5,058 nt of DNA, taken from NCBI GenBank assembly GCA_001795335.1, contig MGOK01000134.1, positions 1,941 through 6,998 of the forward strand. The letters run 5' to 3'. The position numbers and the translations under genes are program-made. The stretch is from Chloroflexi bacterium RBG_19FT_COMBO_55_16. Lineage in GTDB: Bacteria; Chloroflexota; Anaerolineae; Anaerolineales; UBA4823. The notes under the pieces were generated by a model that was given only the letters and a program-made list of their open reading frames with translations, ran no database searches and was not told where the DNA came from. How positions within the stretch are numbered: the first letter of the stretch is position 1; every line of letters starts with the position of its first letter. This document shows positions 1,684 to 4,761 of this stretch, in pieces.

Positions 1684-2754
1684 CTATTTCCCTTCACGTT
1701 TAATTGCCCAAACTACCGCGATAAAAACTACCGCAATACAACCCACCAAAATCGCCATATCTCCCCACACGAGGGCGAAAGTCGCCTTGCCAGCTAAGGA
1801 TAGTCCCATGGCGTGTGTCATGTAATATGTCGGGATCAGGCGCAGAAACACTTCCAATAAAGTCGCCGGCCCTACCAATCCGATCCAACTGGGTGCTATA
1901 AGTACCAACAAGATAATAGAGGACCAAGTGTTCACCTGATGGGCGTTTTGGAACAGACTGCCCATCAATAGCCCCACCATTACCACAAAGAGCGAGCCGA
2001 GCACCAAGGTGACAAAGGTTATAGGCCAATTTCCTACCCAGCCTTTGTTCATGGCGATCAGCACACCAGCGCAGAGCAGGCTGTAACTCATCCCGGTGAG
2101 TGCCTTGCCGGCGGCGATCTCTTTTGGGCCGGCCGGTGAGATCAATAGAGAATCCAGGGTGTGTTTTTCTTTTTCTTCTACCAACAACGTTGGCACCATG
2201 AACGTTCCAGTCATCCCCAGAGCCATGACCAGGAACATGACCAACATGATGCGTTGGAATCGGAATTCACCCTGGAATCCAGCTGAGGTGCCGACATCGG
2301 TCCAAACAACGCGGGCAGGCGCTTCCTGATCTACCAAGGACCAGACCTGTTGATCAACGAGTTGTTGAAATGCGGCTATCTCTCCGCCACCGCGCCGCCG
2401 GTTTACATAAGCGCCTAGTTCTGGTTTTTCGCCGGCCTGCACCGCAGTATCGAAACCAACTGGAATGGCCAAACCACCTACAGCATTCTTCTTGACCTCG
2501 TCAGACAACAGTTGCTCAGAAGCGACCTGCCTAAGAGTTACCTGGGATAAGGTTTGGAGCTCAGTGACCAGGCGCGAACCGCCGGGATCATACACAGCAA
2601 TGGTCAGCTTGAGCATTTCACCTTCATCGGGAAACACGAAACTCAAAAAGAGCGATAACCCTATGGGCAGCAGCAAGCCAAAGAGGATGTACAGGTTTCT
2701 AACTGCATCGATAATATCTTTGCGGGCGATAGTCAGGATAGCACGGCTGTTCAT
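1684..2754 (-). CDS. ABC-2 type exporter permease, NatB-like
   Basis: This 356-residue membrane protein is the transmembrane half of an ABC exporter. The N-terminus carries the amphipathic lead-in ILTIARKDIIDAVRN (6-20), then a first membrane helix at about 21-41. A soluble loop of some 125 residues (43-167), probably extracytoplasmic, follows. A cluster of further helices lies at about 168-191, 217-235, 245-267, 276-298 and 329-350. After the second helix comes LVEEKEKHTLDSLLISP (191-207), the hallmark cytosolic coupling motif of NatB/ABC2_membrane_3 permeases. The layout (one helix, large loop, five or so helices) matches NatB, which exports Na+ in Bacillus, but related proteins move drugs or peptides, so the substrate is open. 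Its ATG overlaps the TGA of the ATPase gene (ATGA, 2754-2751), implying translational coupling and equal expression of the two subunits. Confidence 0.92.
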   Translation of the reverse strand: MNSRAILTIARKDIIDAVRNLYILFGLLLPIGLSLFLSFVFPDEGEMLKLTIAVYDPGGSRLVTELQTLSQVTLRQVASEQLLSDEVKKNAVGGLAIPVGFDTAVQAGEKPELGAYVNRRRGGGEIAAFQQLVDQQVWSLVDQEAPARVVWTDVGTSAGFQGEFRFQRIMLVMFLVMALGMTGTFMVPTLLVEEKEKHTLDSLLISPAGPKEIAAGKALTGMSYSLLCAGVLIAMNKGWVGNWPITFVTLVLGSLFVVMVGLLMGSLFQNAHQVNTWSSIILLVLIAPSWIGLVGPATLLEVFLRLIPTYYMTHAMGLSLAGKATFALVWGDMAILVGCIAVVFIAVVWAIKREGK

Positions 2755-3599
2755 TCTAACAATCTCCTTCCAGTGAGTTGAAGAAATACCTCTTCCAGGG
2801 TGGCCTCTCCAGTGTGCAAGGTGCGTATCTGGCGCGTTGCCATCAATTTTGCCATGCTCTGCCCTGCATCCTTATCTTCAAGGGAGAGAGTAATCCGTTC
2901 TCCACCCTCTAAGATGACGGTTACATTGCGTTGGCCGTGGGTCAATTTTAGCTGTTCTGGGGTGTCCAAGGCCACGATCCGTCCCTGGTTTATGAAGGCA
3001 ACTCGCCGGCACAGTTGGTCGGCTTCATCCATGTAATGCGTGGTCAGGAAGATGGTGACACCAGCCTGTGCTAGCTGCACCACCAGCCGCCGGATTTCGA
3101 GCGCCACGCCTGGATCTAAGCCGCGGGTTGGTTCATCTAGAAATAGCACAGAGGGGTTGTGGAGCAATGCTCGGGCGATGAGCAGGCGTTGGCGCATCCC
3201 ATTCGAATAATGTTGGAGGCGATCATTGGCGCGTTCCAATAATCCCACTCTCTCCAGCAGTTCGTTCACCCGGTGTTGCCCTACCCCATACAACCGGGCG
3301 TTGAATTCCAGGTTTTCCCTGGCAGACATACGTTCGTACAGGTTCTGGTATTCAAAGACCACACCGATTAGCGGTTTCAGACGTTCCTGTTCTTTGACTA
3401 CGTCACACCCTGCTACACGCGCCCACCCGGAAGTCGGTTGAAGTTGACCGGTTAGCATGCGGATGGTGGTCGTCTTGCCGGCTCCGTTCGGGCCAAGAAA
3501 GCCAAAGACCTCGCCTTCTTCCACAGAAAAAGAGATGTCGTCTACTGCAAGCAGACTATTGAAAGTACGGGTCAGGTTTACGACTTGAATAACGTTCAT
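2751..3599 (-). CDS. ABC transporter ATP-binding protein, NatA-like
   Basis: This complete 282-residue nucleotide-binding subunit powers the adjacent permease. Motifs in order: Walker A GPNGAGKT (36-43), signature YSNGMRQR (131-138, a common variant of LSGGQ in this subfamily), Walker B VLFLDE (151-156) with catalytic Glu156, D-loop GLD (160-162) and H-loop His188 in LTTHYMDEAD. All catalytic residues are present, so it should be active. The Q-loop region reads GVVFEYQNLYERMS (79-92). Aligned to relatives, Glu83 stands where the Gln is usual, with Gln85 two residues on. The C-terminal extension of about 85 residues ends in GEATLEEVFLQLTGRRL, typical of the DUF4162-type tail of drug/Na+ exporter ATPases. 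It has its own promoter and strong ribosome binding site upstream and a 4-bp overlap with the permease downstream. It is cytosolic, peripheral to the membrane. Confidence 0.95.
   Translation of the reverse strand: MNVIQVVNLTRTFNSLLAVDDISFSVEEGEVFGFLGPNGAGKTTTIRMLTGQLQPTSGWARVAGCDVVKEQERLKPLIGVVFEYQNLYERMSARENLEFNARLYGVGQHRVNELLERVGLLERANDRLQHYSNGMRQRLLIARALLHNPSVLFLDEPTRGLDPGVALEIRRLVVQLAQAGVTIFLTTHYMDEADQLCRRVAFINQGRIVALDTPEQLKLTHGQRNVTVILEGGERITLSLEDKDAGQSMAKLMATRQIRTLHTGEATLEEVFLQLTGRRLLE
2763..2771 (-). promoter_or_regulatory. Ribosome binding site of the permease, inside the ATPase gene
   Basis: The minus strand reads GGAAGGAGA within the last codons of the ATPase gene, 8 bases before the permease ATG at 2754. 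With the ATGA overlap this supports coupled translation and fixes the permease start. Confidence 0.75.
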
Positions 3600-3643: not shown

Positions 3644-3671
3644 ATTATACAAAGGAGAAAAAAGTTTTCAA
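3644..3671 (-). promoter_or_regulatory. Sigma70-type promoter of the exporter operon
   Basis: On the minus strand a -35 TTGAAA (3671-3666) is followed after 16 bases by a perfect -10 TATAAT (3649-3644). The expected transcription start is near 3637, leaving a leader of about 38 bases with the Shine-Dalgarno site in it. The promoter sits inside the 169-bp gap after the regulator gene, so exporter transcription can be set independently of the regulator. No terminator is seen between the regulator and this promoter, so read-through is possible. Confidence 0.7.
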
Positions 3672-3681
3672 CAAATTATCG

Positions 3682-3731
3682 CCAAATGGCTTGTAGGGCG
3701 GTTAAATGGCGAAAATACCGGGGCGAATGGC
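3682..3731 (-). promoter_or_regulatory. Triplicate direct repeat, candidate LytTR operator
   Basis: Read on the minus strand, three copies of GCCATT occur as the 9-mers GCCATTCGC (3731-3723), GCCATTTAA (3710-3702) and GCCATTTGG (3690-3682). Their spacing is 21 and 20 bp, two helical turns, with gaps of 12 and 11 bases. LytTR regulators bind 9-bp direct repeats of the form WMMGTTNRK separated by about 12 bases. All three copies fit that pattern at positions 2, 3, 5, 6 and 8, but have A where the consensus has G at position 4. The nearest copy ends 10 bases upstream of the -35, a classic activator position (about -45 to -94). A looser ACCATT (3745-3740) lies further upstream out of phase. The repeats are directly visible. 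Their use by the adjacent LytTR protein is inference. Confidence 0.55.
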
Positions 3732-3768: not shown

Positions 3769-4761
3769 TTAATATCCCAACAAATCCCGCAATTCGTGCG
3801 CAGAAGTTTTACTAAGGGGGATCTCGGTTTTCATGGGATCATCGAGAATGAGGGAGAAGCTATCCCTGGTATAGGGGACAATGGCTTTTGCTCGCTGTAG
3901 ATTGACAAGATAGCTGCGATGAGCGCGAAAAAAACCGTTATGGGAAAGTCGCTTTTCCAATTCACCGATGGTCAGGTGGCTGAAGATCTTGCCCTGGGGA
4001 GTGTGAAGACAGGTCTGGCTACCTTCGGTCGAAACATAGAGGATGTCAGCGGGATTAATCAGGACCACCTGACCTTCCTGGCGAGCAGGCACTTTGAAAG
4101 GGATATCCACACGATTTTCATCTTGCCAGGTGCTCATTTTAACTAGATGACCGTGTTCCAGCATATATACCGTCTGGCACAATTGGGTCAAACCGGTTGC
4201 ACCGGTCGCCAGAGTAAGAACACAAGTACCCGTGTCTCCAATCTGGCGGATCAGGCGGGAGAGCAAGGTGCAAGAAGCCTCGTCACACCCTCGAAAAGGG
4301 TCTACGAGCAGGAGAATTGAAGGATTGTGCAAGATCGCCCGGCCAAAAGACAGACGACGGTTCAGCCCCTGGGGTAACCGCCCCGGCGATTCACCAGAGC
4401 GGTCGATCAAGCCGACTTGTTCGAGTACTTCATCTGCCCGCGCGGTCGGTATACCACGCAATTGGCAATAAAAGACCAGATTGTCCCGCGCTGAGAGGCG
4501 TTCGTACAGGCCATTGTCCTGGAAAAGAACGCCAACCCTATGGCTTAGCTTTTCTCTGTCCCGTACCGGATCGAGGCCAACAAGTCGTATTGTGCCTGAA
4601 GTCGGTTTCGATTGCCCAATAAGCAAAGCCAGAAGTTCTAATGTACCGCTGTCGCCTGCTCCAACAATAGCAGCGATATCCCCAGCAGAAACCAAGAGAG
4701 ATTCAATGTCTAATACGACACTCTGTCCCACCACCTTTTGCAGGTGATTAAGCTCTATCAT
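3769..4761 (-). CDS. LytTR transcriptional regulator fused to a degenerate ABC ATPase domain
   Basis: This is a 330-residue two-domain protein. Residues 1 to about 215 have the ABC ATPase fold by clear similarity to the neighbouring exporter ATPase (shared GLYERLSARDNL 84-95 and ILHNPSILLL 143-152). The catalytic motifs are ruined, though. Walker A is GAGDSGTL (34-41, no Lys or Thr), the signature is LPQGL (129-133), and Walker B ends LLLVDP (150-155) instead of LFLDEP. The H-loop His is replaced, with ATG (185-187) in its place, although Gln81 of the Q-loop remains. Residues about 225-330 are a LytTR DNA-binding domain: INPADILYVSTEG (235-247), GFFRAHRSYLVNL (276-288) and the final IPLSKTSAHELRDLL (314-328). 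ABC-LytTR fusions are, as I recall, a recognised but little-studied regulator family. An in-frame TAA (4767-4765) two codons upstream makes the ATG at 4761 the earliest start. The ribosome binding site is weak (GGGA, 4774-4771), suggesting low expression. It probably controls the exporter operon downstream. Confidence 0.9.
   Translation of the reverse strand: MIELNHLQKVVGQSVVLDIESLLVSAGDIAAIVGAGDSGTLELLALLIGQSKPTSGTIRLVGLDPVRDREKLSHRVGVLFQDNGLYERLSARDNLVFYCQLRGIPTARADEVLEQVGLIDRSGESPGRLPQGLNRRLSFGRAILHNPSILLLVDPFRGCDEASCTLLSRLIRQIGDTGTCVLTLATGATGLTQLCQTVYMLEHGHLVKMSTWQDENRVDIPFKVPARQEGQVVLINPADILYVSTEGSQTCLHTPQGKIFSHLTIGELEKRLSHNGFFRAHRSYLVNLQRAKAIVPYTRDSFSLILDDPMKTEIPLSKTSAHELRDLLGY

Follow-up and report, generated by a model that had tools for sequence, protein, structure and literature searches.

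The window, as we call the whole 5,058-nucleotide stretch of DNA analyzed here, encodes a LytTR-type regulator in which an ABC ATPase-like domain devoid of its catalytic motifs precedes the DNA-binding domain, and three direct repeats lie between this gene and the ABC-2 exporter genes downstream. On balance, we think it probable that the protein is a LytTR regulator without a receiver that activates the exporter operon beside it, its dead ATPase domain serving non-catalytic input and dimerization, with docking on the exporter as the most likely input. In this role of a dedicated local transcription activator, the regulator would bind through its LytTR domain to three direct repeats ending 10 bp upstream of the -35 element of the exporter promoter. 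The N-terminal ABC ATPase fold, most similar to that of ABC-2 exporter ATPases, would have lost catalysis and taken over the place of the receiver. Docking of the dead domain, either to the permease or to the partner ATPase, would hold the regulator until the state of the transporter changes, resulting in feedback on exporter supply. The dead motifs, the predicted fold, the synteny, the repeats, and the promoter geometry are all read from sequence; that the protein binds DNA, activates rather than represses transcription, dimerizes, docks, and senses the transporter is what we infer.

The regulator gene (3769..4761, minus strand) runs from an ATG to a stop codon in an intact frame and encodes 330 amino acids. 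Pfam assigned ABC_tran (PF00005) to residues 21-155 (62.3 bits, cut-off 25) and LytTR (PF04397) to residues 231-328 (85.5 bits, cut-off 22.6). A receiver domain with its phospho-acceptor Asp was not found in the regulator by Pfam. An AlphaFold2 model based on an 81-sequence alignment (mean pLDDT 90.3, pTM 0.65) resembled solved ABC ATPases in Foldseek, e.g. LptB 4p33 (TM(target) 0.81, rmsd 2.8), and the ABC nucleotide-binding fold is predicted to be kept. Pfam, the motif alignment, and the model placed the degenerate nucleotide-binding domain at about residues 1-212; a linker at residues 211-220, predicted to be flexible (pLDDT < 50), leads to the LytTR DNA-binding domain at about residues 223-330. 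By sequence, the C-terminal 113 residues resembled a single solved chain, 3d6w, a piece of a DNA response regulator (1.8e-8). An earlier note on this DNA had proposed a pseudo-ATPase fused to LytTR in an intact frame, and the open reading frame, both Pfam domains, and the motif alignment bear it out; the structure prediction of the monomer that it had called for likewise returned an ABC ATPase fold. Because a non-catalytic ABC fold occupies the usual place of the receiver before LytTR, input from a phosphorelay is unlikely. A frameshift or misassembly behind the lost motifs is also unlikely because the nearest cluster of the regulator, 99% identical, represents 15 member sequences and 6 contigs, and a homologue with 80% identity shares the losses of Lys/Thr in Walker A, Asp/Glu in Walker B, and His in the H-loop.

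The catalytic motifs were compared by aligning the regulator with the window's own ATPase (2751-3599) as a reference. Walker A changed from GPNGAGKTT in the ATPase to GAGDSGTLE in the regulator (K to T and T to L), Walker B from LFLDEP to LLLVDP (D to V and E to D), the signature from YSNGM to LPQGL (S to P), and the H-loop from TTH to LAT (H to T). Two residues were retained, the second Gly of the signature and the Asp of the D-loop, which refines the earlier claim of a signature with Ser/Gly replaced. The window's regulator does not possess the residue set of a functional ABC ATPase, i.e. Walker A Lys, Walker B Asp/Glu, signature, and H-loop His. The suggestion in the earlier note that the protein reads nucleotide level is unsupported for the window member because it lacks K/T in Walker A as well as the two acidic residues of Walker B; the other part of its reading, a non-catalytic ABC fold as input without phosphorylation, stood. 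Nucleotide sensing is unlikely for the window member and possible in a sister clade with Walker A and Walker B Asp, described below.

Of 7999 proteins scored by phmmer with the window protein as the query, 1667 matched at E <= 1e-10, and the best 120 of the 1667, the Chloroflexota set, were inspected; ABC_tran and LytTR occurred together in 120/120. Scanning of genomes identified 56 loci, those from Chloroflexota being L001-L049. L050-L056 were set aside: six matched weakly and over LytTR-side residues only, and L054 was a GlnQ-like ATPase by eye. The alignment of the window's clade (n = 169) contained the window, 48 loci, and the 120 database proteins (best 120 of 1667); 168 entries were distinct, with four loci repeating listed proteins. 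Walker B Asp was kept in 0/169 regulators of this clade, H-loop His in 4/169, Walker B Glu in 112/169, and Walker A Lys in 129 of the 167 that could be scored. Both Walker A Lys and Glu were lost in 20/167 scorable regulators, and none of the 169 combined Lys in Walker A, Asp and Glu in Walker B, and His in the H-loop. The total catalytic loss of the window member is extreme, not typical, for its clade.

The divergent (sister) clade emerged from 400 sampled genomes of the phylum of genome G001, for each of which the five best candidates were scored. Seventeen matched at E <= 1e-45; two of them are L001 and L039 by position, and the 15 new ones are L062-L076. These proteins kept Walker A Lys (13/13 scorable) and Walker B Asp (15/15) and lacked H-loop His (0/15), and Walker B Glu was kept in five (L066-L069 and L074) and replaced in ten (by Gln five times, by His four times, and by Leu once). 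A third query, a Priestia megaterium plasmid protein (L077), retrieved 1584 proteins. Among the best 120 of these, whose organism-labeled sources were mostly Bacillota genera, 119 carried both domains. All 120 had a one-residue gap in Walker A; the Walker A Lys column held another residue in 95/120, with the alignment beside the gap being uncertain. The second signature Gly was replaced by Ser in 120/120, and the first signature Ser was kept in 60/120. Walker B Asp had become Glu in 119 and Gln in one of the 120, the position of Walker B Glu held Glu in 109 and Asp in 11, and H-loop His was present in 0/120 (all counts for the best 120 of 1584). The Subdoligranulum regulator (L079:3902-4804) has lost the recognizable Walker A half, its PF00005 match starting only at profile position 55. 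The ATPases from the same loci were intact wherever these residues could be scored, at K in 62 rows, at D and E in 61 each, and at H in 60, out of 62 rows that include four duplicate loci.

As judged from these alignments, the catalytic set is incomplete in every regulator examined, and the residues lost vary by clade. The question raised earlier, whether the catalytic residues are always lost, is thus answered in two ways: the full set is incomplete in all, and it is not the case that every residue is lost everywhere. Loss of every catalytic residue as a family-wide rule was rejected; Lys/Glu are often kept in the window's clade and Lys/Asp in the divergent clade. Homologues with intact Walker A/B showing ATPase activity had been named as what would speak against a dead domain. 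As far as the motifs go, they exist in part: the sister clade keeps Lys and Asp, 5/15 also keep Glu, and none has His.

Mean entropies were compared between 184 regulators and 56 ATPases. Walker A had a mean entropy of 1.55 in regulators versus 0.07 in ATPases, and the H-loop 1.90 versus 0.48; by these values, the constraint on catalysis is relaxed in the ATPase-like domain of the regulators. The tightest parts of this domain were the signature helix (1.04), the Walker B strand (1.16), and the Q-loop/coupling region (1.36), and LytTR was the most conserved part of the regulator (1.01). Within an ABC transporter, the Q-loop region is turned to the permease and the signature to the partner subunit. 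Because the Q-loop/coupling and signature regions are constrained, docking on the transporter is our leading idea, with the qualification that it is drawn from conservation that might reflect the fold as well, the Walker B strand being conserved too. A more specific form of it is offered as a tentative model, possible rather than probable: through its dead ATPase domain, the regulator might occupy the ABC-2 permease as a decoy for the motor subunit, and a transporter that is engaged or lacks sufficient ATPase would let it go to the triple LytTR operator, with neither kinase nor second messenger, in Chloroflexota and Bacillota.

Downstream of the regulator, on the minus strand, the window carries two exporter genes: one (2751..3599) encodes a DrrA-like partner ABC ATPase whose Walker A, Walker B, and H-loop are intact and whose signature reads YSNGM, the other (1684..2754) an ABC-2 type permease (PF12698 by Pfam). 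A gene for a separate inhibitor was not seen among the genes of the window. Beyond the exporter genes lie an aldo/keto reductase gene (660-1631) and a partial DegV-family gene (3-539), both on the minus strand. An ABC-2 exporter gene adjoined the regulator in 59/64 loci. In the tandem clade, an ABC-2 ATPase or permease gene followed downstream on the same strand in 46/49 loci, mostly within 0.5 kb and at most 3.4 kb away; in the distant, divergent clade, an ATPase gene was divergently transcribed in 13/15. No exporter gene was found near the regulator on the short contigs of L004, L006, and L049 or within the fetched flank of about 1.5 kb or less of L063 and L076. The order regulator, ATPase, permease was also found on two Priestia plasmids. 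Genome G002, a single contig of 3.4 Mb, contained only two LytTR domains that we could find, both of them in fusions, and one LytTR domain was found in G407. This near-constant pairing with an exporter operon and the operator-like repeats outside the regulator gene are additions missed by the earlier note.

The repeats reside in the 169-bp gap between the regulator and ATPase genes, where GCCATT occurs at positions 38, 59, and 79 when the gap is read towards the ATPase. Direct repeat 1 (GCCATTCGC; 3723..3731, minus strand) is LytTR-box-like with a GCCATT core. Repeat 2 (GCCATTTAA; 3702..3710, minus strand) follows after 12 bp and repeat 3 (GCCATTTGG; 3682..3690, minus strand) after a further 11 bp, 10 bp before the -35 element of a putative promoter. 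The latter is sigma70-like, TTGAAA-N16-TATAAT, and is located ahead of the exporter genes (3644..3671, minus strand; -35 at 3666-3671, -10 at 3644-3649). Promoters were surveyed in 37/50 tandem-clade regions, namely those whose repeat pair was strong, with the last repeat as the anchor. Counted from the core of this repeat, a -35-like hexamer started at +19 in 22/37 anchored loci and at +39 in 3/37; the spacer chosen between -35 and -10 was 17 bp in 31/37, a length to which the scoring gave a bonus.

This arrangement resembles that of the LytTR regulatory systems (LRS). LRS are described as having 9-bp direct repeats with 12-bp spacers (11 or 13 bp in a minority) and a strong bias to a location 10 bp upstream of -35; the repeats of HdrR mediate activation, as established by EMSA and reporters, and LRS regulators are kept inactive via a membrane inhibitor (PMC6193735). 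The LRS of Streptococcus mutans, HdrRM and BrsRM, share with the window's regulator a LytTR domain without a receiver, and the 9-bp repeat, the 12- and 11-bp spacers, and the 10 bp to -35 are common to both systems (PMC6193735). There, the LRS comprise a membrane inhibitor protein, a repeat pair, and autoregulation of their own operon (PMC6193735), whereas the window's system has a dead ABC ATPase domain in the regulator and three repeats, which precede exporter genes. Repeats of the LRS kind were not found before the regulator's own operon, and the window contained no comparable triple elsewhere, the approximately 300 bp upstream of the regulator included. Because the geometry equals that of LRS sites and the HdrR repeats mediate activation (PMC6193735), we infer by analogy that the exporter operon would be activated rather than repressed. 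By the same analogy, the ABC-2 permease could be the counterpart of the LRS membrane inhibitor.

The window was left out of the repeat count because the core had been derived from it. In the other 46 gaps, with one mismatch allowed, core pairs at 20, 21, and 22 bp were found in 15, 24, and 0 loci (sum 39, close relatives such as L018 and L020 included), compared with 0 on the opposite strand and a mean of 1.02 and a maximum of 5 in 200 block shuffles. Exact cores numbered 43 versus 4 in the same 46 gaps. With leave-one-locus-out weight matrices, the window triple scored 42.4 versus -3.7 for the best elsewhere in the window, and the best triple of the whole locus fell in the segment cut out beside the regulator in 54/65 loci. 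Triples off this segment were sought in two matrix scans, the second of them not leave-one-out. A strong triple (33-47) was thereby located downstream of the regulator, near exporter genes, in L006, L021, L034, and L048; in the last three it is 2 to 3 kb from the regulator, with other genes between regulator and exporter. L013, L017, and L039 had only a moderate triple (13-18), in a range where the background in other loci reaches 16.2. Repeat scores were weak in L001, L028, and L035, and the whole-locus scan found no triple repeat in L004, L049, L063, and L076.

With a matrix built from the tandem clade only, 13/15 regions of the divergent clade, near relatives (L067-L069) among them, scored higher than any of 350 shuffles (maximum 5.1), in each case on the strand that faces the exporter; the exceptions were L063 (2.7) and the 60-bp region of L076. 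In Bacillota, the triples of L077 and L079 beat 500/500 shuffles. That of L078 did so as well and is regarded as weak because its score was negative. The strong triple of L079 (Subdoligranulum) is accompanied by ATPase and membrane-protein genes downstream, as found by ORF inspection. Genome-wide, a two-repeat pattern matched the regulator-exporter gap in 3/6 genomes (both gaps in G002, one in G404, and two overlapping pairs in G003) and did not match it in G405, G406, and G004. The pattern also matched other places (12 matches in total in G003), and the reversed-pattern control gave 4 matches in G002 and 6 in G003; because of these matches, the pattern is weak evidence for a purely local regulon. 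By eye, the third repeat lies inside a terminator-like hairpin followed by a T run in the gaps of L005, L012, L023, L031, L033, and L038, and its bases seem to be shared with the hairpin.

The origin of the regulators was addressed by similarity and by a tree. The neighboring ATPase was the best non-regulator match to the window protein in G001 (120.5 bits; next 90) and in G004 (119.7 bits; next 83.5). In G002, another ATPase (126.8) was slightly above the two neighbors (124), and the best match in G003 reached 87.9. The tree comprised 28 regulators, 21 partner ATPases, and 16 other ATPases. In it, the regulators all fell on the same side of a branch whose support was 100, and they were not placed beside their partner ATPases. 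This topology fits a single origin of the regulators, although long-branch attraction is possible. Descent of the regulators from their partner ATPases is not claimed because the tree separates the two and long branches could group the regulators. The partner ATPases of L011, L016, and L026 lay in another branch, apart from the other partners; strict pairing with one ATPase type is therefore disfavored, and partners can change.

Other explanations were weighed against an exporter-docked activator. If the ATPase-like domain bound ATP or ADP without hydrolysis, it would report the energy state to LytTR. The divergent clade points in this direction, with Walker A Lys in 13/13 scorable proteins, Walker B Asp in 15/15, and Glu replaced in 10/15, and replacement of this Glu by Gln traps ATP; Walker A Lys is also kept in 129/167 regulators of the window's clade. 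The window member lacks Walker A K/T and both Walker B acids, however, the best 120 of 1584 matches to the Bacillota query have the Walker A gap in 120/120 and another residue at the Lys column in 95/120, and the Subdoligranulum member, whose PF00005 match begins at profile position 55, yet carries the triple repeat and the ATPase and membrane-protein genes. Altogether, we regard a nucleotide sensor as unlikely. We hold it similarly improbable that the dead domain is a passive scaffold that merely dimerizes a constitutively active regulator, with protein level deciding the output. Relaxed catalytic motifs in a fold predicted to be kept would suit such a scaffold, and tandem sites demand multimeric binding anyway, but the ATPase-like fold together with a near-constant ABC exporter linkage would then be a coincidence, and the Q-loop/coupling and signature-helix regions are conserved.

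Heterodimeric ABC ATPases with degenerate sites exist, and the fusion might pair with the intact ATPase in an asymmetric or inhibited transporter, its DNA binding being secondary. Although the bit scores of the neighboring ATPases in G001 (120.5 versus 90) and G004 (119.7 versus 83.5) agree with this idea, we judge it very doubtful: the repeats stand before exporter genes in most loci, also with intervening genes (L021, L034, and L048), LytTR is the best conserved part of the protein (mean entropy 1.01), the other ATPase of G002 outscores the neighbors (126.8 versus 124), and the partner type differs in L011, L016, and L026. Finally, the repeats might be an RNA element or the regulator's terminator instead of a protein operator, as the third repeat within a terminator-like hairpin and T run, e.g. 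AGCGCCTTTCGGCGCTTTTTT in L005, L033, and L038 (by eye), would suggest. This appears highly improbable to us, as divergently arranged loci, in which the region lies upstream of the regulator, retain both the exporter-facing orientation and a spacing of about two turns of the helix, and the triple of L021, L034, and L048 is 2 to 3 kb from the regulator, near exporter genes.

AgrA, ComE, and LytR are LytTR response regulators with a receiver domain. They have the LytTR domain and direct-repeat sites in common with the window's regulator (for ComE and LytR also PMC6193735), which by Pfam has no receiver. ABC-2 exporter ATPases of the DrrA type resemble the N-terminal half of the regulator in predicted fold and sequence; the regulator differs from them in the loss of the catalytic motifs and the fused DNA-binding domain. 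In the MalK-MalT system, an active transporter ATPase restrains a separate regulator protein. This is akin to the working idea proposed here, a regulator that would read transporter state, except that in the window's system a dead ATPase is within the regulator polypeptide. Fusions of ABC_tran and LytTR are named in databases (NCBI 'LytTR family transcriptional regulator DNA-binding domain-containing protein'); they have the same architecture, and the window protein is a member. Presumably, there is also a PIRSF/InterPro family of ABC_tran-LytTR proteins. A search of paper titles and abstract openings, with subscription journals mostly outside it, returned no description of the fusion's biology, its clade-wise catalytic loss, or the repeats. 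The architecture is thus known by database name, and the ABC-derived input domain on a receiver-less LytTR protein and the triple site at the exporter promoter are apparently new, in that we found no description of them.

A dead transporter motor and gene control are linked here in one polypeptide. If the dead domain does read the transporter, exporter supply would be matched to demand without phosphorylation. The repeats allow target prediction for proteins so far named by their domains only. The module makes a ready test system because the regulator lies next to its putative operator and target and the catalytic residues lost differ between clades.

Several loci carry further genes of note. 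Close to the module on pPmT-2, a plasmid of Priestia megaterium, two lantibiotic genes of the mersacidin family are annotated, together with a gene for a LanM synthetase (L077:1809-2213), a hint at peptide export or immunity as the cargo. A CAAX-protease-like gene (Rce1-like, PF02517) is inserted between regulator and permease in L003:7183-8208, and in L044:8494-12921 one ATPase gene is followed by four permease-like genes in a row.
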